A stretch of DNA of 64,000 nucleotides from Liolophura sinensis (taxonomy: Eukaryota; Mollusca; Polyplacophora; Chitonida; Chitonidae): assembly GCF_032854445.1 (NCBI RefSeq), contig NC_088300.1, positions 3,098,001-3,162,000 on the forward strand, given 5' to 3'. The first letter of the stretch is position 1. Each line of letters starts with the position of its first letter. Below the pieces are notes generated by a model. The model was not told where the DNA came from. It made no database searches and saw only the letters and a list, made by a program, of their open reading frames with translations. Position numbers and translations under genes: made by a program. Shown piece by piece: positions 10,661 through 58,832 of the stretch.

Positions 10661-11248
10661 CCCTGCTGGCTTATTAAATCATCCTACGAAATACACAAGC
10701 AGTTATCTGGCAACAACTGTTCACACTTAGCATTCCACAAATCCTTTCTTTAAGAGTTCACTTAGAGCACACGCAAAATAAAATCAATAGGGATAAAAAA
10801 AAGTGAGGAATAATACTTAGAAAGCAGGTTCACAGAGTAAACCAGGAAAATGGCTTTTACCAGCAATAAAACGGCGACTCCCTCTACAAGAGGGAATAAT
10901 ACTCAATTCAGTCGCAATTATTGTCTTGGCTGAGGAAAGTTTCATCTTAATCTCCAGAGGTTGCATGAAAATGCCAAGTCTTTTATTTCTTCCAAATGAA
11001 GCAGAGTTTTTAAGTAATATATTCACATAGTAAACAAGCAGGAAATACAATAGAGAGCAAAGCGCAGATAAAACATGGCATTACACATAAATGCTTTTAG
11101 TTTGTAAAAAGATCAATCTCACTTTGTAACTAAGCCATCTGGCTGGCCAGGAGGCTTATGACTATACAGGTCAACGTGACATGTTATCTTTCTCTTTGTG
11201 GTTCTTTCCAGAAAATAGAGATCAGAGCTTTGTACACCTAAACTTATA
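10661..11248. other. Unique sequence, nothing recognised
   Basis: AT-rich sequence without an exon, repeat or RNA gene that I can support. Confidence 0.45.
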
Positions 11249-12213
11249 CTGAGCAATGCTGATATGCTACCTCACTGTTATAGAAGCACACACAAGAATG
11301 GAGAGCCCTGCCTACTTGAACTGTTACTGAGCAATGCTGATATGCTACCTCACTGTTATAGAAGCACATACAAGAATGGAGAGTCCTGCTTACATGAAAT
11401 GTTACTGAGCAATGCTGATATGCTACCTCACTGTTATAGAAGCACACACAAGAATGGAGAGCCCTGCCTACTTGAACTGTTACTGAGCAATGCTGATATG
11501 CTACCTCACTGTTATAGAAGCACACACAAGAATGGAGAGCCCTGCCTACTTGAACTGTTACTGAGCAATGCTGATATGTTACCTCACTGTTATAGAAGCA
11601 CACACAAGAATGGAGAGTCCTGCTTACATGAAATGTTACTGAGCAATGCTGATATGTTACCTCACTGTTATAGAAGCACACACAAGAATGGAGAGCCCTG
11701 CTTACATGAACTGTTACTGAGCAATGCTGATATGCTACCTCACTGTTATAGAAGCACACACAAGAATGGAGAGTCCTGCTTACATGAACTGTTACTGAGC
11801 AATGCTGATATGCTACCTCACTGTTATAGAAGCACACACAAGAATGGAGAGTCCTGCTTACATGAACTGTTACTGAGCAATGCTGATATGCTACCTCACT
11901 GTTATAGAAGCACACACAAGAATGGAGAGTCCTGCTTACATGAAATGTTACTGAGCAAAGCGGATGTTCTACCTCACTGTTGTACAATCACAAACAAGAA
12001 TGGAAAGCTCTGTCTACCTAAACTGTTATGTAGCAGTTTTGATGTGTTACCTCACTGTTATACAAGCATAAACAAGAATGGAGAGCTCCACTTACCTAAG
12101 CTGTTACTGAGCAATTTTGATGTGCTACCTCACTGTTATACAACCATAAACACGAATAGAGAGCTATGCTTACCTAAAGTGTTACTGAGCAATGCCGATG
12201 TGCTACCTCATTG
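11249..12213. repeat. Tandem array, 78-bp unit, about 12 copies
   Basis: The unit begins ctgagcaatgctgatatgct and has a 78-bp period. The first nine copies are almost identical; the last three (from about 11953) are clearly older and diverged. Since 78 equals 26 codons, long frames stay open on both strands: a 26-residue repeat containing DMLPHCYRSTHKNGE on the plus strand and one containing SCVCFYNSEVAYQHCSVT on the minus strand. Simultaneous opening of both strands argues that it is non-coding, though the diverged copies also keep the plus frame open. Confidence 0.93.
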
Positions 12214-13492
12214 CTACATTTGCATATTTAAGTTCAACATCTGAAGCATTTTGAAGGCAGAAGGTTTAATTCTTCTCAACCTGACTGCAATCTTCCCCCA
12301 TCCCCATCTTTCCCAACCACTATAGTTCTATAGTTCACACATCTAAATTATTTGCAAATAACTATCCACTGCTCAACTATGTCAACAACAATGCTATAAC
12401 TTTAGAACAACTACAATTTACAGCTGCCATAACAACATGCACTGCACCAAGTAAACAAACAACCTGCACTGCACCAAAGCACTATACAAACATTGCATAT
12501 AGATACTGCACATGTACACATGCAATGATTTACCATCAGAACCAGGGACATGACCTAATGACCAATAATAATTGAAATGGCATCCCAAATAAGGACAGAG
12601 CCCAGAAATGCTGCAAAGAACACTAAACGAAGGTGCCTACACAAGTACAAAGAAATCCTGATAACAGAAAAAATAAAACAACAAAAGTGTTTTCAGGATA
12701 ATTTGTAAATACCTCCTGAGATATAGGACTGATACATCACAAGAACTCAGATATATTTTATTTTAGTTTGTTGTCTTGGAAACCATGAAAATATTACATG
12801 GAACGCAGGAAAACAAATTTTATAGTTTGTAACTTGACAAGAGCTAATGATATGTTTATCCTGTGAAATTAAAAGTCTAAGAGGTGAATCCAGAAACTAT
12901 GGCAACGTTATGACCTGGAAAATCAGAGGAACTGATGCCTGACAGAGGGTGAAAATCCCAGTAGTCTGCGGGGCACACAGGTGAAAATCCCAGTAGTCTG
13001 CGGGGCACACAGGTGAAAAGCAGGGCACATGTGTAGTGAGGAGAGTTTGCCATACCCGGCAGACAAGGGGAGACAACTTTGACCTCACATACAATGTAGC
13101 TCTTTGCTTTCATATGAGTACCTGTACTCAAATTGTGACTTTGCTTAAGTTCGCTTGGATAGGGTTTTATCTAGGTTTGTGCTGTTTTGGTGGCAGCATT
13201 TTGATGAGAATTTCCATACGTTTCATGTATCCATTTCATTGGATAATCTATCTTTGCACGTGGATCTGACCAATCAAATGGACGATCGTGTGATGTCAAT
13301 TTGAAATTATTCAGCAACTGACATCACCGTTGAAGGACATGTGGAGAAGCAAGAGGGCAATGTATAACACTTAGCTGGGGTCAATGTTTGACCTAAGGCT
13401 GAAGGACTTATCCTATAACAGGATGGATCATAAAATGAAAAGATAGCAAATAACATAACTTCAATTATTCTGAAAGAGGGGTGGCAACACTC
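12214..13492. other. Gene-free stretch with a 31-bp duplication
   Basis: No gene recognised. At about 12950-13016 a 31-bp unit (gtgaaaatcccagtagtctg plus cggggcacaca) is present twice in tandem with the start of a third copy. Confidence 0.5.
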
Positions 13493-20200: not shown

Positions 20201-23200
20201 ACATGCACTGTACAACAATTGAAGAAACACTTTACAGCCATAGAGAAAATGTTTCAGGTGAATAACTCATTTCAAACAAACAAATGACAACGGTTTTGTA
20301 CCGCAGTCTTATGAATATAGGTAAATGTACACTGAACTGGTGATTAGATAGTGTCAGTTCTTTATTTATCATACAAATCCACGTACCTTTTGTGGAGTAG
20401 AGAAATCATCTTCAGAGCCCAGCCCCAGTCTGCCTGTGGATGGAGGTTAACTTCCATTTTAGTTGAATGCACAGCTTCATAATTACAGCATTGAAAACTT
20501 GGGAACACTTTCACAAAACGTTGTATGAAGTCATATATTTATGTATGTATGGGGTTTAACACTGTACTTAACAACTTTTCAGTCATAAAAACGATGAGGA
20601 GTCATCAGGTGTGTACGAAGTCATATATCTTTTAAGTTTTTGTAAATAGTATTGGGAGTAGGTTTTAGCACCGTGAGGAAACATTTACATGAAAAGTTCT
20701 GAAACACTGATTTACTCCATTTTGTGAATGTGGGTCTTGTGAAATTGTGGACAACCAGGGCCCAGTTTCACAAAGCGACACACCACATTTTGTTTCATAC
20801 ATTTGTCGTATGACATTTTGTACATCACTATTAATGCACGATTGTCTCGTATGTGCCATTATCATACACGTACAACATCTCTGTGAAGCTGGCCCAGTTT
20901 GCCTGATTCGAAAAAGTTAGATACTTATATAAAGCACAAAAGATCTGTGGTACAAGACTAGAAGAAGTCTTTGAATAATTGAAATGACAATATCAGCTCT
21001 GGCTTCAACCTTACCAAATTCCCCACAGCCCCAGCTGTACACTTCCCCAGCTTTAGTCAGGGCTATCACATGAGCATCTCCACAAGCAATCTCTGCCACA
21101 GGATGACTGGAGAAAAAGTTAACAGGTATAGGTGTCAGCACTTCATCCCCTTCTTCATTGTCACAGCCTAAACAGCCGTAGTAGTCTGAGCCAAAAGCAT
21201 AAACTTCTCCATCATCTAAAAAACACCAGAGAAATAAAAAAGATGTCTACATATGATTTATTAGCTTCTGGAAATACCTGCAGCCTGGATTCTGTGAAAA
21301 TTGGATTTTTCCATATAAATCTCACTTTTAATGTCAAAAATACTAAATGTTACCATGTAAGTAAAGCGAAAAGAGCAGAATGATGTGTATATGTACATTC
21401 CTATTGAATTTGTCTGCCCCTAAATTAAAATCTGACACTCCATTCCATATTTTATGTTGTACTTAATGTTTAACTGTGATAAAAAAGAACAATGCATCTC
21501 TGCATTTTGACAACAAGCTTTGGATCAGAGAATAGTCTTTACATAAGAACACACAGTGTCCTATTCTTAAATCCATTTAATGCTCTCAAATTCTATTTTA
21601 GCACTCCCATGCTAGCTGTTATTCACCTGCTGATCATGCACAATACAGTACCTGAAAAACAGAGAGTGAAGTCCTCCCAACAGGCCGTCTGTTTGATGGG
21701 CACTCCTATGCTAGTTGTTATTCATTTGTCGATCATGTACAATACACTACCTGTCACCAGAGTGTGAAATCCTCCCCACAGGCTGCCTGTTTGATGGGCA
21801 CTCCCATGCTAGTTGATATTCACTTGTTGATCATGTACAATACAGTATCTGTCACACAGAGTGTGAAGTCCTCCCAACAGGCTGCCTGTTTGATGGGCAC
21901 TCCCATGCTGGCTGATATTCACTTGTTGATCATGTACAATACACTACCTGTCACACAGAGCATGAAGTCCTCCCAACAGGCCGTCTGTTTGATGGGCACT
22001 CCCATGCTGGTTGTTATTCCCATGATCATCATGTACAATACACTACCTGTCACACAGAGTGTGAAGTCCTCCTCACAGGCTGCCTGTTTGATGGGCACTC
22101 CCATTCACTTGTTGATCATGTACAATACACTACCTGTCACACAGAGTGTGAAGTCCTCCTCACAGGCCGTCTGTTTGATGGGCACTCCCATTCACTTGTT
22201 GATCATGTACAATAAACTACCTGTCACACAGAGTGTGAAGTCCTCCTCACAGGCTGTCTGTTTGATGGGCATTCCCATGCTGGTTGATATTCACTTGTTG
22301 ATCATGTACAATACACTACCTGTCACACAGAGTGTGAAGTCCTCCCAACAGGCCGTCTGTTTGATGGGCACTCCCATGCTGGTTGTTATTCACATGATCA
22401 TCATGTACAATACACTATCTGTCACACAGAGCGTGAAATCCTCCCAACAGGCCGTCTGTTTGATGGGCACTCCCATGCTGGTTGTTATTCACATAATCAT
22501 CATGTACAATACACTATCTGTCACACAGAGTGTGAAGTCCTCCTCACAAGCTGTCTGTTTGATGGGCATTCCCATGCTGGTTGATATTCACTTGTTGATC
22601 ATGTACAATACACTACCTGTCACACAGAGTGTGAAGTCCTCCCCACAGGCCGTCTGTTTGATGGGCACTCCCATGCTGGTTGTTATTCCCATGATCATCA
22701 TGTACAATACACTACCTGTCACACAGAGCGTGAAATCCTCTCAACAGGCTGTCTGTTTGATGGGCACTCCCATGCTGGTTGTTATTCACATAATCATCAT
22801 GTACAATACACTATCTGTCACACAGAGTGTGAAGTCCTCTTCACAGGTTGTCTGTTTGATGGCCACTCCCATGCTGGTTGTTATTCACTTGTTGATCATG
22901 TACAATACACTACCTGTCACACAAAGTGTGAAGTCCTCCCCACAGGTTGTCTGTTTGATGGGCACTCCCATGCTAGTTGATATTCACTTGTTGATCATGT
23001 ACAATACAGTATCTTTCACACAGAGTGTGAAGTCATTCCAACAGGTTGTCTGTTTGATGGGCACTCCCATTCACATAATCATCATGTACAATACACTACC
23101 TGTCACACAGAGTGTGAAGTCCTCCCAACAGGCTGCCTGTTTGATGGGCACTCCCATGCTAGTTGATATTCACTTGTTGATCATGTACAATACAGTATCT

Positions 23201-26200
23201 TTCACACAGAGTGTGAAGTCATTCCCACAGGTTGTCTGTTTGATGGGCACTCCCATGCTAGTTGATGTTCACTTGTTGATCATTTACAATACAGTATCTG
23301 TCACACAGAGTGTGAAGTCCTCCTCACAGGATGTCTGTTTGATGGGCACTCCCATTCACTTGTTGATCATGTACAATACACTACCTGTCACACAGAGCGT
23401 GAAGTCCTCCCAACAGGCTGCCTGTTTGATGGGCACTCCCATGCTGGTTGATATTCACTTGTTGATCATGTACAATACACTACCTGTCACACAGAGTGTG
23501 AAGTCCTCCCCACAGGCCGTCTGTTTGATGGGCACTCCCATGCTGGTTGATATTCACTTGTTGATCATGTACAATACACTATCTGTCAAACAGAGTGTGA
23601 AGTCCTCCTCACAGGCTGTCTGTTTGATGGGCACTCCCATGCTGGTTGATATTCACTTGTTGATCTTGTACAATACACTACCTGTCACACAGAGTGTGAA
23701 GTCCTCCCAACAGGCTGTCTGTTTGATGGGCACTCCCATTCACATGATCATCATGTACAATACACTACCTGTCACACAGAGCGTGAAGTCCTCCCAACAG
23801 GCTGCCTGTTTGATGGGCACTCCCATGCTAGTTGATATTCACTTGTTGATCATGTACAATACAGTATCTTTCACACAGAGTGTGAAGTCATTCCCACAGG
23901 TTGTCTGTTTGATGGGCACTCCCATGCTAGTTGATGTTCACTTGTTGATCATTTACAATACAGTATCTGTCACACAGAGTGTGAAGTCCTCCTCACAGGA
24001 TGTCTGTTTGATGGGCACTCCCATTCACTTGTTGATCATGTACAATACACTACCTGTCACACAGAGTGTGAAGTCCTCCCCACAGGCTGCCTGTTTGATG
24101 GGCACTCCCATTCACTTGTTGATCATGTACAATACACTACCTGTCACACAGAGCGTGAAGTCCTCCCAACAGGCTGCCTGATGGGCACTCCCATGCTGGT
24201 TGATATTCACTTGTTGATCATGTACAATACACTACCAGTCACACAGAGTGTGAAGTCCTCCCCACAGGCCGTCTGTTTGATGGGCACTCCCATGCTGGTT
24301 GTTATTCACACGATCATCATGTACAATACACTATCTGTCACACAGAGTGTGAAGTCCTCCTCACAGGCTGTCTGTTTGATGGGCACTCCCATGCTGGTTG
24401 ATATTCACTTGTTGATCTTGTACAATACACTACCTGTCACACAGAGTGTGAAGTCCTCCCAACAGGCCGCCTGTTTGATGGGCACTCCCATGCTGGTTGT
24501 TATTCACATAATCATCATGTACAATACACTACCTGTCACACAGAGTGTGAAGTCCTCCCAACAGGCTGCCTGTTTGATGGGCACTCCCATGCTGGTTGTT
24601 ATTCACATGATCATCATGTACAATACACTACCTGTCACACAGAGTGTGAAGTCCTCCCCACAGGCTGTCTGTTTGATGGGCACTCCCATCACATGATCAT
24701 CATTTACAATACACTACCTGTCACACAGAGTGTGAAGTCCTCCTCACAGGCTGTCTGTTTGATGGGCACTCCCATTCACTTGTTGATCATGTACAATACA
24801 CTACCTGTCACACAGAGTGTAAGTCCTCCCCACAGGCTGTCTGTTTGATGGGCACTCCCATGCTGGTTGTTATTCACATGATCATCATGTACAATACACT
24901 ACCTGTCACACAGAGTGTGAAGTCCTCCCCACAGGCTGCCTGTTTGATGGGGACTCCCTCTAGGGCATCCACCTTGCGGGGTATTCTGTACGCTGCTGTG
25001 TCACCATGACCCAGCTGACCTTCTATCTTGGTGTCTCCCTGAACATTCTGACAAAGACAACAAGAAGCAGATGAGATACACAGTTAACTGATGTCACTAT
25101 AGGCTTACTTACAGCATTCATATGACAAAGACAACAAGAAGCAGATGAGGTACACGGTTAACTGATGTCACTATAGGCCTACTTACAGCATTCATATGAC
25201 AAAGACAACAAGAAGCAGATGAAGTACACGGTTAACTGATGTCACTATAGGCCTACTTACAGCATTCATATGACAAAGACAACAAGAAGCAGATGAGGTA
25301 CAAGGTTAACTGATGTCACTAGAGGCCTACTTACAGCATTCATATGACAAAGACAACAAGAAGCAGATGACGTACACAGTTAACTGATGTCACTATAGGC
25401 CTACTTACAGCATTCATATGACAAAGACAACAAGAAGCAGATGAGATACACAGTTAACTGATGTCACTATAGGCCTATTTACAGCATCCATATGACAAGA
25501 CAACAAGAAGCAGATGAGGTACAAGGTTAACTGATGTCACTAGAGGCCTACTTACAGCATTCATATGACAAAGACAACAAGAAGCAGATGAGGTACACGG
25601 TTAACTGATGTCACTATAGGCCTACTTACAGCATTCATATGACAAAGACAACAAGAAGCAGATGAAGTACACGGTTAACTGATGTCACTATAGGCCTATT
25701 TACAACATTCATATGACAAAGACAACAAGAAACAGATGAGGTACATGGTTAATTGATGTCACTATAGGCCTACTTACGGCATTCATATGACAAAGACAAC
25801 AAGAAGCAGATGACGTACACAGTTAACTGATGTCACTAGAGGCCTACTTACAGCATTCATATGACAAAGACAACAAGAAGCAGATGAGATACACAGTTAA
25901 CTGATGTCACTATAGGCCTACTTACAGCATTCATATGACAAAGACAACAAGAAGCAGATGAGGTACACAGTTAACTGATGTCACTATAGGCTTACTTACA
26001 GCATTCATATGACAAAGACAACAAGAAGCAGATGAGGTACACAGTTAACTGATGTCACTATAGGCCTACTTACAGCATTCATATGACAATGACAACAAGA
26101 AGCAGATGAGATACACAGTTAACTGATGTCACTAGAGGCCTACTTACAGCATTCATATGACAATGACAACAAGAAGCAGATGAGGTACAAGGTTAACTGA

Positions 26201-29200
26201 TGTCACTATAGGCCTACTTACAGCATTCATATGACAAAGACAACAAGAAGCAGATGAGATACACAGTTAACTGATGTCATTATAGGCCTACTTACAGCAT
26301 TCATATGACAAAGACAACAAGAAGCAGATGAGGTACACAGTTAACTGATGTCACTATAGGCCTACTTACAGCATTCATATGACAATGACAACAAGAAACA
26401 GATGAGATACACAGTTAACTGATGTCACTATAGGCCTACTTTCAGCATTCATATGACAAAGACAACAAGAAGCAGATGAGGTACACAGTTAACTGATGTC
26501 ACTATAGGCCTACTTACAGCATTCATATGACAAAGACAACAAGAAGCAGATGAGGTACAAGGTTAACTGATGTCACTATAGGCCTATTTACAGCATTCAT
26601 ATGACAATGACAACAAGAAACAGATGAGATACACAGTTAACTGATGTCACTATAGGCCTATTTACAGCATTCATATGACAAAGACAACAAGAAGCAGATG
26701 AGATACACAGTTAACTGATGTCACTATAGGCCTATTTACAGCATTCATATGACAATGACAACAAGAAACAGATGAGATACACAGTTAACTGATGTCACTA
26801 TAGGCCTATTTACAGCATTCATATGACAAAGACAACAAGAAACAGATGAGATACACAGTTAACTGATGTCACTATAGGCCTACTTACAGCATTCATATGA
26901 CAAAGACAACAAGAAGCAGATGAGATACACAGTTAACTGATGTCACTATAGGCCTACTTACAGCATTCATATGACAATGACAACAAGAAACAGATGAGAT
27001 ACACAGTTAACTGATGTCACTATAGGCCTACTTACAGCATTCATATGACAAAGACAACAAGAAGCAGATGAGATACACAGTTAACTGATGTCACTAGAGG
27101 CCTACTTACAGCATTCATATGACAAAGACAAAAAGAAGCAGATGAGGTACACGGTTAACTGATGTCACTATAGGCCTACTTACAGCATTCATATGACAAA
27201 GACAACAAGAAGCAGATGAGGAACAAGGTTAACTGATGTCATTATAGGCCTATTTACAGCATTCATATGACAAAGACAACAAGAAGCAGATGAGATACAC
27301 AGTTAACTGATGTCACTAGAGGCTTACTTACATCATTCATATGACAAAGACAACAAGAAGCAGATGAGATACACAGTTAACTGATGTCACTATAGGCCTA
27401 CTTACAGCATTCATATGACAAAGACAACAAAAAGCAGATGAGGTACATAGTTAACTGATATCACTATAGGCCTACTTACAGCATTCATATGACAAAGACA
27501 ACAAGAAGCAGATGAGGTACAAGGTTAACTGATGTCACTATAGGCCTACTTACAGCATTCATATGACAAAGACAACAAGAAGCAGATGGGGTACACAGTT
27601 AACTGATGTCACTATAGGCCTACTTACAGCATTCATATGACAAAGACAACAAGAAGCAGATGAGATACACAGTTAACTGATGTCACTATAGGCCTATTTA
27701 CAGCATTCATATGACAAAGACAACAAGAAGCAGATGAGGTACACAGTTAACTGATGTCACTAGAAGCCTACTTACAGCATTCATACGACAAAGACAACAA
27801 GAAGCAGATGAGGTACACAGTTAACTGATGTCACTAGAGGCCTACTTACAGCATTCATACGACAAAGACAACAAGAAGCAGATGAGATACACAGTTAACT
27901 GATGTCACTATAGGCCTATTTACAGCATTCATATGACAAAGACAACAAGAAGCAGATGGGGTACACAGTTAACTGATGTCACTATAGGCCTACTTACAGC
28001 ATTCATATGACAAAGACAACAAGAAGCAGATGAGATACACAGTTAACTGATGTCACTATAGGCCTACTTACAGCATTCATATGACAAAGACAACAAGAAG
28101 CAGATGACGTACACAGTTAACTGATGTCACTGTAGGCCTACTTACAGCATTCATACGACAAAGACAACAAGAAGCAGATGAGGTACACAGTTAACTGATG
28201 TCACTGTAGGCCTATTTACAGCATTCATACGACAAAGACAACAAGAAGCAGATGAGGTACACAGTTAACTGATGTCACTATAGGCCTATTTACAGCATTC
28301 ATATGACAAAGACAACAAGAAGCAGATGAGGTAGAAGGTTAACTGATGTCACTATAGGCCTACTTACAGCATTCATACGACAAAGACAACAAGAAGCAGA
28401 TGAGGTACACGGTTAACTGATGTCACTATAGGCTTACTTACAGCATTCATATGACAAAGACAACAAGAAGCAGATGAGGTACATAGTTAACTGATGTCAC
28501 TATAGGCCTACTTACAGCATTCATATGACAAAGACAACAAGAAGCAGATGAGATACACAGTTAACTGATGTCACTATAGGCCTACTTACAGCATTCATAT
28601 GACAAAGACAACAAGAAGCAGATGAGGTACACAGTTAACTGATGTCACTATAGGCCTACTTACAGCATTCATATGACAAAGACAACAAGAAGCAGATGAC
28701 GTACACAGTTAACTGATGTCACTGTAGGCCTACTTACAGCATTCATACGACAAAGACAACAAGAAGCAGATGAGGTACACAGTTAACTGATGTCACTGTA
28801 GGCCTATTTACAGCATTCATATGACAAAGACAACAAGAAGCAGATGAGGTACACAGTTAACTGATGTCACTATAGGCCTATTTACAGCATTCATATGACA
28901 AAGACAACAAGAAGCAGATGAGGTACAAGGTTAACTGATGTCACTATAGGCCTACTTACAGCATTCATACGACAAAGACAACAAGAAGCAGATGAGGTAC
29001 ACGGTTAACTGATGTCACTATAGGCCTACTTACAGCATTCATATGACAAAGACAACAAGAAGCAGATGAGGTACATAGTTAACTGATGTCACTATAGGCC
29101 TACTTACAGCATTCATATGACAAAGACAACAAGAAGCAGATGAGGTACACAGTTAACTGATGTCACTAGAGGCCTACTTACAGCATTCATATGACAAAGA

Positions 29201-32200
29201 CAACAAGAAGCAGATGAGGTACACAGTTAACTGATGTCACTAGAGGCCTACTTACAGCATTCATACAACAAAGACAACAAGAAGCAGATGAGATACACAG
29301 TTAACTGATGTCACTATAGGCCTATTTACAGCATTCATATGACAAAGACAACAAGAAGCAGATGAGATACACGGTTAACTGATGTCACTATAGGCCTACT
29401 TACAGCATTCATATGACAAACACAACAAGAAACAGATGAGGTACACAGTTAACTGATGTCACTATAGGCCTACCTAAAGCATTCATATGACAAAGACAAC
29501 AAGAAGCAGATGACGTACACAGTTAACTGATGTCACTATAGGCCTACTTACAGCATTCATATGACAAAGACAACAAGAAGCAGATGAGGTACACGGTTAA
29601 CTGATGTCACTATAGGCCTACTTACAGCATTCACATGACAAAGATAACAAGAAGCAGATGAGGTACACGGTTAACTGATGTCACTATAGGCCTACTTACA
29701 GCATTCATACGACAAAGACAACAAGAAGCAGATGAGGTACAAGGTTAACTGATGTCACTATAGGCCTACTTACAGCATTCATATGACAAAGACAACAAGA
29801 AGCAGATGAGGTACACAGTTAACTGATGTCACTATAGGCCTACTTACAGCATTCATACGACAAAGACAACAAGAAGCAGATGAGGTACAAGGTTAACTGA
29901 TGTCACTATAGGCCTACTTACAGCATTCATATGACAAAGACAACAAGAAGCAGATGAGGTACACAGTTAACTGATGTCACTATAGGCCTACTTACAGCAT
30001 TCATATGACAAAGACAACAAGAAGCAGATGAGGTACACAGTTAACTGATGTCACTAGAGGCTTACTTACAGCATTCATATGACAACGACAACAAGAAGCA
30101 GATGAGATACACAGTTAACTGATGTCACTATAGGCCTACTTACAGCATTCATACGACAAAGACAACAAGAAGCAGATGAGGTACAAGGTTAACTGATGTC
30201 ACTATAGGCCTACTTACAGCATTCATATGACAAAGACAACAAGAAGCAGATGAGGAACAAGGTTAACTGATGTCACTATAGGCCTACTTACAGCATTCAT
30301 ATGACAAAGACAACAAGAAGCAGATGAGGTACAAGGTTAACTGATGTCACTATAGGCCTACTTACAGCATTCATATGACAAAGACAACAAGAAGCAGATG
30401 AGGTACACAGTTAACTGATGTCACTAGAGGCCTACTTACAGCATTCATATGACAAAGACAACAAGAAGCAGATGAGGTACACAGTTAACTGATGTCACTA
30501 TAGGCCTACTTACAGCATTCATATGACAAAGACAACAAGAAGCAGATGAGATACACGGTTAACTGATGTCACTATAGGCCTACTTACAGCATTCATATGA
30601 CAAAGACAACAAGAAGCAGATGAGATACACGGTTAACTGATGTCACTATAGGCCTACTTACAGCATTCATATGACAAAGACAACAAGAAGCAGATGAGGT
30701 ACACAGTTAACTGATGTCACTATAGGCCTACTTACAGCATTCATATGACAAAGACAACAAGAAGCAGATGAGGTACACGGTTAACTGATGTCACTATAGG
30801 CCTACTTACAGCATTCATATGACAAAGACAACAAGAAGCAGATGAGGTACAAGGTTAACTGATGTCACTAGAGGCCTACTTACAGCATTCATATGACAAA
30901 GACAACAAGAAGCAGATGAGGTACACTGTTAACTGATGTCACTATAGGCCTACTTACAGCATTCATATGACAAAGACAACAAGAAGCAGATGAGGTACAA
31001 GGTTAACTGATGTCACTATAGGCCTATTTACAGCATTCATACGACAAAGACAACAAGAAGCAGATGAGATACACAGTTAACTGATGTCACTATAGGCCTA
31101 CTTACAGCATTCATATGACAAAGACAACAAGAAGCAGATGACGTACACAGTTAACTGATGTCACTATAGGCCTACTTACAGCATTCATATGACAAAGACA
31201 ACAAGAAGCAGATGAGATACACAGTTAACTGATGTCACTATAGGCCTACTTACAGCATTCATATGACAAAGACAACAAGAAGCAGATGACGTACACGGTT
31301 AACTGATGTCACTATAGGCCTACTTACAGCATTCATATGACAAAGACAACAAGAAGCAGATGAGGTACACGGTTAACTGATGTCACTATAGGCCTACTTA
31401 CAGCATTCATATGACAAAGACAACAAGAAGCAGATGAGGTACAAGGTTAACTGATGTCACTAGAGGCCTACTTACAGCATTCATATGACAAAGACAACAA
31501 GAAGCAGATGAGGTACAAGGTTAACTGATGTCACTATAGGCCTACTTACAGCATTCATACGACAAAGACAACAAGAAGCAGATGAGGTACACGGTTAACT
31601 GATGTCACTATAGGCTTACTTACAGCATTCATATGACAAAGACAACAAGAAGCAGATGAGGTACATAGTTAACTGATGTCACTATAGGCCTACTTACAGC
31701 ATTCATATGACAAAGACAACAAGAAGCAGATGAGGTACACAGTTAACTGATGTCACTAGAGGCCTACTTACAGCATTCATATGACAAAGACAACAAGAAG
31801 CAGATGAGGTACACAGTTAACTGATGTCACTAGAGGCCTACTTACAGCATTCATACAACAAAGACAACAAGAAGCAGATGAGATACACAGTTAACTGATG
31901 TCACTATAGGCCTATTTACAGCATTCATATGACAAAGACAACAAGAAGCAGATGAGATACACGGTTAATTGATGTCACTATAGGCCTACTTACAGCATTC
32001 ATATGACAAACACAACAAGAAACAGATGAGGTACACAGTTAACTGATGTCACTATAGGCCTACCTAAAGCATTCATATGACAAAGACAACAAGAAGCAGA
32101 TGACGTACACAGTTAACTGATGTCACTATAGGCCTACTTACAGCATTCATATGACAAAGACAACAAGAAGCAGATGAGGTACACGGTTAACTGATGTCAC

Positions 32201-35200
32201 TATAGGCCTACTTACAGCATTCACATGACAAAGATAACAAGAAGCAGATGAGGTACACGGTTAACTGATGTCACTATAGGCCTACTTACAGCATTCATAC
32301 GACAAAGACAACAAGAAGCAGATGAGGTACAAGGTTAACTGATGTCACTATAGGCCTACTTACAGCATTCATATGACAAAGACAACAAGAAGCAGATGAG
32401 GTACACAGTTAACTGATGTCACTATAGGCCTACTTACAGCATTCATACGACAAAGACAACAAGAAGCAGATGAGGTACAAGGTTAACTGATGTCACTATA
32501 GGCCTACTTACAGCATTCATATGACAAAGACAACAAGAAGCAGATGAGGTACACAGTTAACTGATGTCACTATAGGCCTACTTACAGCATTCATATGACA
32601 AAGACAACAAGAAGCAGATGAGGTACACAGTTAACTGATGTCACTAGAGGCTTACTTACAGCATTCATATGACAACGACAACAAGAAGCAGATGAGATAC
32701 ACAGTTAACTGATGTCACTATAGGCCTACTTACAGCATTCATACGACAAAGACAACAAGAAGCAGATGAGGTACACGGTTAACTGATGTCACTATAGGCC
32801 TACTTACAGCATTCATATGACAAAGACAACAAGAAGCAGATGAGGTACAAGGTTAACTGATGTCACTATAGGCCTACTTACAGCATTCATACGACAAAGA
32901 CAACAAGAAGCAGATGAGATACACAGTTAACTGATGTCACTAGAGGCCTACTTACAGCATTCATACTACAAAGACAACAAGAAGCAGATGAGGTACACGG
33001 TTAACTGATGTCACTATAGGCCTACTTACAGCATTCATACGACAAAGACAACAAGAAGCAGATGAGGTACACAGTTAACTGATGTCACTATAGGCCTATT
33101 TACAGCATTCATATGACAAAGACAACAAGAAGCAGATGAGGTAGAAGGTTAACTGATGTCACTATAGGCCTACTTACAGCATTCATATGACAAAGATAAC
33201 AAGAAGCAGATGAGATACACAGTTAACTGATGTCACTAGAGGCCTACTTACAGCATTCATACTACAAAGACAACAAGAAGCAGATGAGGTACACGGTTAA
33301 CTGATGTCACTATAGGCCTACTTACAGCATTCATACGACAAAGACAACAAGAAGCAGATGAGGTACACAGTTAACTGATGTCACTATAGGCCTATTTACA
33401 GCATTCATATGACAACGACAACAAGAAGCAGATGAGGTACACAGTTAACTGATGTCACTAAAGGCCTATTTACAGCATTCATACGACAAAGACAACAAGA
33501 AGCAGATGAGGTACACAGTTAACTGATGTCACTATAGGCCTATTTACAGCATTCATATGACAAAGACAACAAGAAGCAGATGAGGTAGAAGGTTAACTGA
33601 TGTCACTATAGGCCTACTTACAGCATTCATACGACAAAGACAACAAGAAGCAGATGAGGTACACAGTTAACTGATGTCACTATAGGCCTATTTACAGCAT
33701 TCATATGACAAAGACAACAAGAAGCAGATGAGGTACAAGGTTAACTGATGTCACTATAGGCCTATTTACAGCATTCATATGACAAAGACAACAAGAAGCA
33801 GATGAGGTACAAGGTTAACTGATGTCACTATAGGCCTATTTACAGCATTCATACGACAAAGACAACAAGAAGCAGATGAGGTACACAGTTAACTGATGTC
33901 ACTATAGGCCTACTTACAGCATTCATACGACAAAGACAACAAGAAGCAGATGAGGTACACGGTTAACTGATGTCACTGTAGGCCTACTTACAGCATTCAT
34001 TTGACAAAGATAACAAGATGTAACATGAGTGATAATGCCCAGTCACTGTGTTGTGACAAATTAAAATTTTCAGAACATGTCAACGTTTTGACACATACAG
34101 GTGTGACTGTGAGGAACTCTGAGATGGCTGACTTAATTCTGTATTAATTTATTTGATTAGTGTTTTATGCCAAACTCAAGAATATTTCATTCTTTATGAA
34201 AGTGGCCAGCATTATGGTGGGAGGAAACCCACAGCCATCAGCACGTTGCTGGCAGACCTTCCAACCTATGGATGAGATGGCTGACAGCAGCGAACTAGAT
34301 TACATATAGTGATGAAATCCATCACAGCTGACTCTTTGATGACATGAAGACTTGTGTGAATAAATGTGAACATTATTGGTTGAAAACTGTTCAAAATTTT
34401 GTGTTTATAAAAAGATAGATGTCAAGGTCAGGGAATCCAATATGGCAGATAACAGCCATGCTGAATTTTGTACAGTGACAAAAATCAATTCCAATAGTTC
34501 TAGCAAATTGTTGAAGATATACTGTGCACGATACCAGGTTTGCCAGACAGATGCACAGACAAAAATTTAATTTATGCAAAGCTCCCTTTGTCCACTGATT
34601 CTGAAAACAAAGGCAAAGCTAAGGAAAATTTCAAGTAAATGTGTTAGCCAAAAGCTAATCAGTCTTAATTATTTTTCTGAAACATTATCTGCACAAGTCT
34701 TTTCAGACTTGAAATTCCATTTGACTTTGATGAGAAGCCAGAGCAGGCATGTGTACATGTAGAGAGAATGATCATCATACTTACAGCCCAAGTGTAAATT
34801 TCCTTCTCTATGGTGATGGCGACAAAATGGGAATGACCAGCCACAACCTTGGAAAAGAGTACTCAGCAAATCAGTGTCTTACATACGTGTGCTTCACTGA
34901 AGCTAGTGTGAGTATATTTCATAATGTTATAGCTGTGAATCAGATACTGAACATGGAAACTAACTGAAACTTGAGTTCTTCTGTACCTGATTAGAGTGCT
35001 TGAGCAACCTTTATGGCTAGTGGAATAAAATAACTATTCACTTATAAACATAATAAAAGGTTATAGAACCTACTGGAATAAAGTAATTATTCAATTATAA
35101 GTATAAGAAAAGATAAGCTTACCTGCATGGCACTTTTCCCTCCCTTGAACAGATCCAGCTTCTGCGGTGTCTGTTTGCCCCCTCCCCACTGGTACACCTG

Positions 35201-38200: not shown

Positions 38201-41200
38201 TTCTTCAGTAATATGCATTAGTTATTTATTAAAACTGTACAAGCAGGTATCTAAATGTGCAATAAGGTATATGTAACAATATGGAGCCAAACAGTGAAGT
38301 ACTAAATACTAGAGTTAAAATTAAGCCAGTCTTGTTTATTAACTAAAGTAACAAAAAAAAATGATATATGTAACACCAGAAAAAGTTTGAAATGTTACCT
38401 TTTGAAGCAGGCACTTCACAAGTTGTTTAACGTCATAGGAATATGTGGGATCAATCTCACCAAATTCTCCACACACTATCTCATTGGCCAATTTCAAGGG
38501 ATTCTGAAAAACAATTGCAAAGGGGTAGAAAAAAAACCCATCATATGATGCAGTAATACTGTAGTTATTAAAAATTAATTAATTATTTTAAAATATGATA
38601 CAGTAGGACACTGTTTGCAAAGAAATATCATCTTGTATTTGGCCTACTTACTGTGGCATAGAATGTCTTTTGTAGTGTTAACAGCTCAAACAAAACACAG
38701 CCTAAAGCCCAAATGTCACTCTTGAAGTTATACCTGAAATGACATGATACAGAGTTATACCCCTTCCCTCTCTCAAAGAGGGGGGACAACTCCCTCAAGG
38801 TTTCTCAAGCAAAAGGGTTACAGTAATTATTTAAATTACTGATAATCAAAAATTTGGGTGTAAAACAATTTAACAAAAAAAAATTCGGAACAAAACTTTA
38901 AATTCTTATCACATATTTTCTAATTTGAATATTTATTATAGCAACAGGCATATTTTGACTTTCACAATGATACAGAATTAAACTACTAAACTAACTAAAA
39001 GAGTTAAATAGATTTATATATTTATTTATTTGATTGGTGTTTTATGCCTTACTGAAGAATAATTCACTTACACAACAGCATTATGGTGGGAGGAACCTGG
39101 ACAGAGCCCTGGAGGAACCCACGACCATACGCAGGTTGCTGCAAAACCTTCCCACGTACGGCCGGAGAGGAGGCCAGCATGAGCTGGACTTGAACTCACA
39201 CCGACCACATTGATGAGAGGCTAGGGTCATTACGCCAGGCTGGCATGCTAACCCCACTGGCCAGAAATGTAATGGCTGGCTATCTACTATGGCAGCCTAA
39301 CCATTTATCATTTTCACTAACATGGAAAGGCAACTCTATGACACCGAACACTTCAAACTACACAGACTTACTTGACCCCCTGAACTATCTCGGGTGACAT
39401 GTAATATGGGGTTCCAACAAACTGAAACAGGAAAATGTGAACAGGATTAACGACACACATGTATGGACAAATCCTGAGTCCTATTTTGATATTGTCAATG
39501 CTGATATTATAGTATAAACAGTGCAATCACCCACTGTGTGAGACTGTATCAGATGACTAGCATGGGACAGTTTTTCTGTTAAAGTCATGATCAGTGTATC
39601 AGCTAGGATCGCTTTCTGATTTCTCTAATTTTCAGTTGTAAAAATTGACAACTTTGATACTGTACACTTACCGAGTCCACCAACTGAGACTTGGTATCCA
39701 GAACTTTTGAAATGCCAAAGTCTCCCAGTTTTACTAGACCCAGTTTCGTCAAGAAGACATTCAATGTCTTCAGATCTCTGCAACAAATATATCCATTATT
39801 ACAATGTCTAATTAAACAACTTCTCATGTTCAAACTGTCATACAGAGTAAATGTTTTAAAATCTTCATTTAAGACACATGTGCAGTATTAAGGCTAATAA
39901 ATCTCTGATAAGATTACCCTGGATTAGCAGTTTAATAGGTTATCTAATCAAGTGTTGAAACCATCTGAGGACTGCTACTTACTGACAAACTTTTCCACGG
40001 ATGAGATTTGTATGTCATGTGGGTGGACAGACTTTCAAGTGCAAATGGCCCTACAAATGCTGTCAACCATTTACTTTTACCAAGGCCCCACAAACAATCA
40101 GAGCTCACTGGAGAAGCCAGAAATTCCCTGTTCACGACAGGAATTGAGCCTGCACTTCTAGCAACTGAACGACAAACATCTTAACTACTTGGCCACGATC
40201 CATTCTCATTTGTCTGTATTAGACCCCTAAATACATGTATTTACATATAGCAGCAAGTTTTGATTAAGAGTACTGCCTGTATAACTGCAAATAAGAATTT
40301 TATCCACACACGAGACTAGTACTTATCATGACTAATTTGAATGACCTCACCTATGGAGTATACCATAGCCATGTATGTATGATACTGCTGACGTCAGCTG
40401 GAACATGTACCAACGAACAACCTGAAGAGAGATCGGACAGAAAGTTCTAGCAATATACAAGCAGAATAATGTTATACTGTGTATAAATATAATATTGACA
40501 TTATTTCCCCCTTTACAATCAGAGAGCACGTGTCTTGATTGCCAGGTTATTCCAAGACTAGAACTAGGGCCAGGACTCACAGAGCATCTTAATCATTCCT
40601 GGCTCAAGGGTAACATTAAATAGCCATATGAGCCCTGCTTACACCTTACTACAACTAGGGCCAGTACTCACAGAGGGCATCTTAATCATTCCTGGCTCAA
40701 GGGTACCATTAAATAGCCATATGAGCCCTGCTTATACCTTACTACAACTAGGGCCAGTGCTCACAGGGGGAATCTTAATCATTCCTGGTCCAAGAATCCC
40801 ATTAAATAGCCATATAAGCCCTACTACCTCCTGACCAGAACTAAGGCCAGTGGTTGTAGGGGCATCTCAGTGATTCCTGGTACCAGGATCCAATTACATG
40901 GCCATATGAGCCCTGCTCACTCCTGACCAGAACTAAGGCCAGTGGTTGTAGGGGCATCTCAGTGATTCCTGGTACCAGGGTCCCATTACATGGCCATATG
41001 AGCCCTACTCACTCCTGACCAGAACTAAGGCCAGTGGTGGAAGGAGCATCTCAGTGATTCCTGGTACCAGGGTCCCATTACATGGCCATATGAGCCCTAC
41101 TCACTCCTGACCAGAACTAAGGCCAGTGGTTGTAGGGGCATCTCAGTGATTCCTGGCACCAGGGTCCCATTACATGGCCATATGAGCCCTACTCACTCCT

Positions 41201-57200: not shown

Positions 57201-58832
57201 GGTAACATGTAAAAACACTATGCTTAATGCCCAGTATTCCATTTCCTTAACCCATAAAGCTGACTGCCATCATACACGTAGTTCGGGAAATCCTTGAGAA
57301 TGGCATTAAACATGAATCAAGTAAATACATTGTAGATAACAAGCTAATAACATCACACTCATCACTAACTTACCCATACAGAGCACTGGTTTCCTTCTTT
57401 GTCCATGTGTTTGAGTTGGCAGCCGACTGTGCTTTGCCTTTCTTTGATAAGGTTCTCTCTGTTGTTCTGTTGTTCAGATTCGATCCATGAGCTGCCCTAC
57501 TTGGCTCGTAAGTATGGTCTGATAACCCGTCAGAAGATCCTGCCATGCGCACACTAGGTGTTCTTTTATTCTTCCCTCTGTTGGATCGTGTTTGCCTGAT
57601 GGCTGTAGCAGGTTTCTCAGACTCGCTTTCACTGTCTTTCAGCTTTTCTTCTGAAGATGACTTAGCTGAAGGTAATGATGCTTTAGCTCCTGCCAACTTA
57701 CCATTGCCTTTGTTTGTGGATTTCTTAGGTTCATCCTCAGATTCTGTGGAGGAATTTAGACTGCCATGATCTTCTTTAGGGTGTGCTTTCTTTTTCATCA
57801 TTGTCTTCCTCTTAGGTTTTTTCTTTCTTTCTTGTGTATTACTTCTCTCAAGTGAAGAATCTGAGAGGTCTTTTGCTGAGCTAGCACGACAGCGTTTGTT
57901 GATTTGCTTCCTTTTGGATGACCTTGTGTGATAATTGCTCTGCACATCTCGGGTCTCAGGGAGGGAAACTGCCCTAGATTGAGTCTGCCGGCCAGTCACC
58001 TGTATGCTCTCATGACAAACATCACTGCTAGTTCTGTCACACTGCTCCTGGGTAGTTTTCCCTTGCTCTCTGTTCTTTCCAGTTGTTTTCGCCCTCACCC
58101 CATGACCCTTTTTACCACCGACAGGAGATAAGTCTGCCTTTGTGGCTGTATCACTGACAGAAGATACCTGTTCTGAGACAGCTATTCTTGCACCACAATC
58201 AGAGTCTATGTCTGAGGAATCTGAAAACTTTTCTCCTGCTTTACTGTAACAAGTCTTTGTACTCATTCCTTTTCTTTGAGACAACCGTTTTAGCTTATGC
58301 TTCTGTATAACACTCAACACATCAACTTCCACATTCAAACTGTGTACAGGCTTTGCCCTTTTGTTTGTTTGCTGGACACACGTCTTCTTTGGCCTTTGAC
58401 TGTTTTCTTTGTTTATATCAGTCAGAACAACTACAGATTCAATGTTGCAGCTTCTCTTCAGAGCAGCCAAAGAACATCCAGTTTTTTCTTCAGTCTTTCT
58501 GGCAGTTGCAATGTTTCTCTTAACTGTCACCACACAATTAGTCTTGGAGTCAGATTTTAATTTCTGTGTTTTATTGACAGTAGCCGGTTTTGATAGATTG
58601 TTTTCATGAGACTGCCGTGTCTAAATAAAAGAGAATTAGGGAGGAAACATAGAAAACAAGAACAATAAGGAGAAAACATAGAAAACAAGAACAATAAGGA
58701 GAAAAAAAAAACCAATCAACATCAATACTACATTAAAATACTATATACAAGATACAGCTTTTTAACACAGCTAGCAAAACATACATGCACCACCTGTACA
58801 TGCATGTTGGCAGCAAATCAGTTTGTGTGTTG

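Follow-up and report, generated by a model that had tools for sequence, protein, structure and literature searches.

Probable mirage-type array at the donor of a putative NEK9 exon

The window analyzed here is a stretch of 64,000 nucleotides from the chiton Liolophura sinensis (C6:3098001-3162000 of contig NC_088300.1). It contains a minus-strand gene in which the end of one exon, together with its 5' splice site (donor), is repeated in tandem through the following intron. The gene is presumably NEK9 and the exon its exon 13, both labels being those of the original prediction. The array is most likely a minisatellite of the kind called mirage in amphioxus, in which the first donor would be used and the further copies tolerated, and the 5' splice site probably had a part in its birth. 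The features that carry this reading are, in window coordinates:

21601..24958, minus strand: donor mirage array of 35 units, mostly 99/87 bp (Tandem Repeats Finder, TRF, and unit alignment; TRF score 4651)
24903..25047, minus strand: authentic RCC1-repeat exon of 145 nt, phase 0 in and phase 1 out (RCC1 match, E 4.6e-11; acceptor called from sequence)
24901..24902, minus strand: authentic 5' splice site CAG/GTAGTG, weak (consensus score 1.2)
21060..21215, minus strand: next exon, with RCC1 match (acceptor AG 21217-21216; provisional 3' end)

The 35 head-to-tail units consist of the real exon end (unit 1, 24958-24903) and 34 extra copies within the following intron. The original prediction, which had proposed a roughly 34-fold amplification of exon end and donor in sense orientation, was thereby confirmed for window positions 24958-21601. 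In a full unit, the final 56 nt of the exon, which comprise 18 codons and the last G, run through the junction into 30-43 nt of intron. Spacings between unit starts were mostly 99 bp (24 times) or 87 bp (6 times), with 86 bp found twice and 83 and 98 bp once each. Compared with the real junction, the extra copies had 87-99% identity across 65-69 nt. The GT was intact in 24 of the 35 units, i.e., in 23 of the 34 extra copies, and 33 of the 35 units had an in-frame stop past the junction, so that the predicted abundance of intact donors and of early stops held as well. The predicted glycine variants (CGEDF, CEEDF and CWEDF) were also recovered, the RCC1 glycine codon reading TGG in 13 units, GGG in 11, GAG in 9, GAA in 1 and TGA in 1.

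The units were not uniform: 32 of the 35 were distinct, three pairs were identical, similarity was highest at lag 7, and the outermost unit had the lowest match score of all. The identical pairs and the peak at lag 7 would fit unequal exchange. On the opposite (plus) strand of the array an open frame of 841 aa was present at window positions 21656-24181. This frame is probably meaningless and would arise because units of 99 and 87 bp are multiples of three without antisense stops. Unit length as a multiple of three was rejected as a general rule, as it holds for these units and not for all of the other arrays.

The 609 Mb assembly (632 contigs; one assembly was searched) was used to ask where else the junction occurs. 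All 35 matches, a lower bound given the tool's counts, were on the minus strand within the NEK9 array. A dispersed element, such as a transposon or introner carrying a donor, would explain why the repeats contain splice signals; this confinement to one array, and the fact that the units hold the gene's own codons, leave it a practically negligible chance. An assembly artefact is likewise highly improbable. According to excerpts of PMC11068029, the HiFi reads had a mean length of 8.3 kb at 14x, which is shorter than a second array of 8,970 bp upstream of the same exon (see below). However, the 3.4-kb donor array fits within a read, most of its units can be told apart, and the same architecture was found at 12 other donors.

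Reading frame and constraint on the copies

Pfam searches of the window yielded a kinase exon and RCC1 exons on the minus strand, as expected for NEK9. Joining donor 24902 to the exon at 21215 gave an unbroken RCC1 frame in the joined translation. A second AG lies a few nt inside the exon (25047-24903), beyond the called acceptor. With a score of 1.2 against a median of 4.2, the NEK9 donor was weak, and 21 of the 23 extra copies with GT scored at least as high as this first donor. The same was true of 5/5 copies at a further locus, L040, and in at least 6 of 13 arrays most GT copies equaled or exceeded the consensus score of the first donor.

The original prediction raised the possibility that the array acts in the choice of splice site, distal donors being used at times and leading to a premature stop and decay of the transcript (a nonsense-mediated decay switch) or to longer isoforms. 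The retained GTs and the stops after the junction are in keeping with such a switch, as is the finding that 22/22 distal donors tested, out of the 23 with GT, led to a premature stop when joined to the next exon. None of these 22 donors yielded an open longer isoform. Moreover, the copies lacked detectable constraint, the first donor gave an intact RCC1 frame, and the same structure was present at unrelated genes and is not rare in the genome. In amphioxus, excerpts of PMC3087553 (reverse-transcription PCR of globins) and of PMC3902484 report that regular splicing is undisturbed by mirages. Regulation is therefore unsupported, and we regard it as very unlikely.

If the copies were maintained for their coding part, the exon part of the units might be more conserved than the intron part, a comparison that the original prediction had itself suggested. 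This was not observed. Variable columns made up 22/56 of the exon part and 19/43 of the intron part of the NEK9 array (p = 0.68). Pairwise diversity was 0.071 in the exon part and 0.104 in the intron part at NEK9, and in the 12 donor arrays compared (NEK9 and 11 others, L072 not being among them) the exon part was the less diverse in just 4/12 (p = 0.34). Synonymous changes were in excess in the NEK9 exon part (10/39 possible vs 13/123, p = 0.03), an excess that was not significant when split into transitions (p = 0.18) and transversions (p = 0.22). Across the 12 arrays the GT was kept in 102/119 scorable copies. Judged from these alignments, the copies show no clear sign of being kept for function.

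A different form of selection would keep donor arrays because many U1 sites aid exon definition. The weakness of the NEK9 donor and the donor-specific excess described below would suit this explanation. In contrast, the twelve other mirage donors were not weak (scores 4.2-8.8), and neither the diversity of the GT, which was under the unit mean in 10/12 arrays (p = 0.20), nor that of the donor 9-mer (p = 0.91) was significantly reduced. We consider selection of this kind quite unlikely. Because the copies look unconstrained, a mutational bias tied to donor use is favored over selection.

Mirage arrays at other loci and donor excess

Copies spaced 104 bp apart at one RCC1 locus prompted wider sampling. 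The genome contained 113 RCC1 matches, 97 of which lay within 20 stretches fetched around RCC1 exons; 6 were removed as repeat copies. In addition, 33 of 138 kinase matches and 44 of 81 myosin matches were hand-picked from lists (match ≤300 bp, open frame ≤130 aa), and these 77 exons were fetched with about 600 bp of flank on each side. The 168 sampled matches provided 142 donors (score ≥1) and 160 acceptors (score ≥ -1.5). The sample is of modest size, and the splice sites throughout rest on consensus scores and open reading frames. A junction was counted as in-array when at least 2 further local copies of it were present. The rates exclude NEK9 and locus L004, both of which had been noticed before the sample was drawn, leaving 133 donors and 151 acceptors; L023 was unused.

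Twelve further donors were each part of a tandem array built from the donor's own junction (L004, L006, two at L011, L017, L021, L033, L040, L065, L072, L083 and L094). Three acceptors were likewise found in arrays of their own junction, with the exon start included and the AG intact (L027, L028 and L067), and a donor-only polarity as an absolute rule was therefore ruled out. In the myosin exon L067 (positions 1-605 in gene orientation), a 32-bp unit was repeated ∼19 times, and by eye nearly all TTTGTAG/GTTTGAG acceptors ahead of the real one were intact; provided that the exon call is right, splicing has to select the last of these acceptors.

In-array junctions amounted to 11/133 donors (8%) and 3/151 acceptors (Fisher p = 0.025). 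Raw coverage of the intron by local copies was 10-16% between +60 and +420 on the donor side, above the value of the donor junction, and for this reason the position of array edges near donors was dropped as proof of seeding. Because arrays with many copies push up the raw coverage, each array was collapsed to one unit. On the donor side the collapsed coverage peaked at the junction (0.086 for the 20 nt of intron adjoining it). It was 0.076 at +20 to +39 and 0.019-0.036 at 60-240 nt into the intron, and 0.013 at 60-80 nt into the exon; the intron background had a mean of 0.017 (120-400 nt). The collapsed donor junction was ∼5 times the intron background (Poisson p about 3e-5), whereas the acceptors, compared with a background of 0.020, were at background. 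The donor ratio was 3.2-7.5 under five parameter changes and 3.2-9.6 across nine settings including the three exon sets, namely RCC1 (5/68, ratio 4.5, p = 0.006), kinase (2/29, ratio 9.6, p = 0.019) and myosin (4/36, ratio 3.9, p = 0.021). Acceptor ratios were 0-2.5, the highest belonging to the kinases (2/32, p = 0.19).

The excess was also visible in short words counted across the genome, for which three exact copies of a word at tandem spacing were scored as a triple and the reversed word served as control. Donor 9-mer A formed 609 triples against 109 for its reverse (singles 9,807 and 4,854), ∼2.8 times per single. For donor 9-mer B the triples were 347 against 58 (singles 6,053 and 6,502; ∼6.4 times per single), and for the acceptor 8-mer 308 against 99 (singles 40,787 and 19,004; ∼1.45 times per single). 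With a single reversed word for each motif, this control is thin. A single array with ∼36-bp units at G000:C1:93392582-93394463 (+) held dozens of perfect CAGGTAAGT words. At scores ≥4, called donors were in arrays in 11/83 cases, as compared with 3/156 other sense sites (p = 0.0007) and 6/140 antisense sites (p = 0.019), so the donor motif would probably not suffice as a cause. The donor-like motif GTRAGT was found in arrays away from exon ends 6 times in sense and once in antisense among 58, too few to decide; of the 6 sense arrays one is a mirage remnant and two come from one array family.

Several observations weigh against a role of the donor in array birth and against tolerated copies behind a first donor. 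The donor excess holds only if every array is given a single count: without collapsing, the donor junction (11/133) was covered no more than the intron at +200 (20/133). The splice sites in the sample rest on genomic sequence. Matches overlap within arrays, and the triple counts are thus not counts of independent arrays. At scores ≥5 the difference between donors (6/56), other sense sites (4/78) and antisense sites (4/65) was not significant. Finally, the first donor was stronger than most copies at L094 (0/4 reach it), L006 (2/10) and L033 (2/5).

These points bear on the strongest competing explanation, according to which there is no donor hot spot: introns would be rich in minisatellites, some of which happen to reach across exon ends, and the peak would be an effect of counting or of persistence, the functional copy being spared decay. 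Arrays indeed held 16,316 of the 133,118 bases of 18 RCC1 loci, and the raw profile had no donor peak. Against this, the collapsed peak lost little height from the junction to the unconserved intron side (+20 to +39), acceptors lacked a peak, and a donor 9-mer was enriched genome-wide relative to an equally common reversed word. We hold the absence of a hot spot to be doubtful, and the best supported of the competing explanations.

Since collapsed arrays were ∼5 times commoner on donors than at other intron positions, array birth was probably linked to the donor. In the sequence of events that we favor, a short tandem duplication across the donor of the exon would have founded the array, and unequal exchange would have enlarged it to ∼35 units. 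The exon-side copy would remain the working exon end while the other 34 became intron, and the spliceosome would most likely use the first, exon-proximal donor, so that the copies are tolerated. The link to the 5' splice site itself would be a mutational bias, the molecular step of which we can only infer. The more general proposal is that active 5' splice sites are birth hot spots of minisatellites in this chiton, with ∼8% of donors affected, 5 times the rate of other intron positions and 4 times that of 3' splice sites, through a process of donor use such as co-transcriptional U1 binding, polymerase pausing or R-loops. This proposal is tentative, and we put it slightly below an even chance.

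Upstream array and further features of the window

The same exon was flanked by arrays on both sides, the 99/87-bp donor array downstream and a 74-bp array upstream that the original prediction had missed:

25049..34018, minus strand: 74-bp array of ∼121 copies and 8,970 bp (TRF), ending at the acceptor of the exon

The upstream copies share their polypyrimidine tract with the real acceptor and carry a TTAAC (121 places), which resembles the branchpoint consensus. The motif TTGTCAG had 0 occurrences within the 74-bp array. Among 122 matched tracts, an AG at ≤4 nt from the tract was found only in the real acceptor (AG 25049-25048) and in two copies (TTTGTAG); in the remaining copies the first AG was 12-22 nt further on. 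GTAAGT was present in 95 places of the array. The AG belonging to the acceptor is missing from most upstream copies, yet judging by these motifs the copies are not wholly inert. As the array exceeds the mean read length, its copy number is uncertain.

A putative further part of the gene was located upstream:

39606..39887, minus strand: open frame with a protein-kinase match (PF00069 positions 111-158; E 4e-7, 30.1 bits, just below the family cut-off of 31.7)

We infer that this frame forms the upstream part of the NEK9 candidate gene. Tandem arrays with units of ≥15 bp covered 22,052 of the 64,000 window bases (34%). At window positions 11219-12244 a 78-bp unit was repeated 12 times, with both strands open (341 aa and 247 aa) and Pfam matches that look spurious. 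An open frame of 416 aa at 57370-58620 (-) had no Pfam matches at E 0.01. Elsewhere in the genome, RCC1 matches and part of a kinase match shared one 555-aa frame at G000:C2:1035103-1036722 (-), possibly an intron-poor NEK8/9-like gene, and five kinase matches with long open frames ∼2.6 kb apart at G000:C5:13465676-13476590 (+) likely represent a tandem gene cluster.

Comparison with known systems

According to excerpts of the published reports, mirage minisatellites are known in amphioxus from Adh3 and the globins BflGb6/BflGb9 (PMC3087553) and from troponin C and PGBD5 (PMC3902484). In these reports, minisatellite-like repeats of an exon-intron boundary adjoin the real exon, both 5' and 3' boundaries being affected; copy number varies, and the AG/GT is retained in many units, though not in every one (PMC3087553, PMC3902484). 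The NEK9 array shares these properties to a large extent. Its units span the exon-intron boundary with the splice signal (35/35), it is contiguous with the authentic exon and in the same orientation (35/35 on the minus strand), and its prevailing unit lengths lie inside the 10-160 bp given in PMC3087553. GT is present in many, not all, of its units. The identical pairs inside the array and the divergent unit at its edge resemble the concerted turnover of the amphioxus mirages. Mirages leave the mRNA normal, with which the reading frame deduced here from genomic sequence would be consistent; length polymorphism and somatic instability are further mirage traits, the present array being seen in one assembly. 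The NEK9 array differs in its mollusc host and in having ∼35 units, where the BflGb6 haplotypes have 6 and 3 (PMC3087553). A single exon flanked by two arrays, and 8% of sampled donors affected with a donor excess, are also unlike the amphioxus mirages as described in these excerpts.

Two other systems are related in part. The internal tandem repeats of human segmental duplications are likewise number-variable minisatellites at exon-intron boundaries, as excerpted from PMC2812944; there, ∼30-bp units present 4 times created introns anew or made exons variable among recent paralogues, whereas the chiton exon is unchanged and the copies stay intronic. Intron gain by duplication of an AG/GT proto-splice site (Rogers, cited in the excerpts of PMC3087553) shares a tandem duplication with splice signals. 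It was rejected as an explanation here, the exon being uninterrupted and an existing intron filled with copies. No report of mollusc mirages or of a donor hot spot was found in titles and abstracts of open-licence literature; an intron paper on Conus (PMC3862624) deals, in its excerpts, with microsatellites. As far as the open-licence literature shows, the occurrence in this phylum, the high frequency of such arrays and their excess at donors are new, and the array has more units than published examples.

Implications

Gene prediction and read mapping may misplace exon ends in genomes of this kind. If many exons end in near-identical donors and are nevertheless spliced correctly, they would offer a natural test of how the spliceosome chooses, whether by the first donor transcribed or by the shortest exon. 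A hot spot restricted to donors, if true, would tie splicing or transcription to the tandem duplication of DNA, and would turn an amphioxus curiosity of a few genes into a general mutational process.

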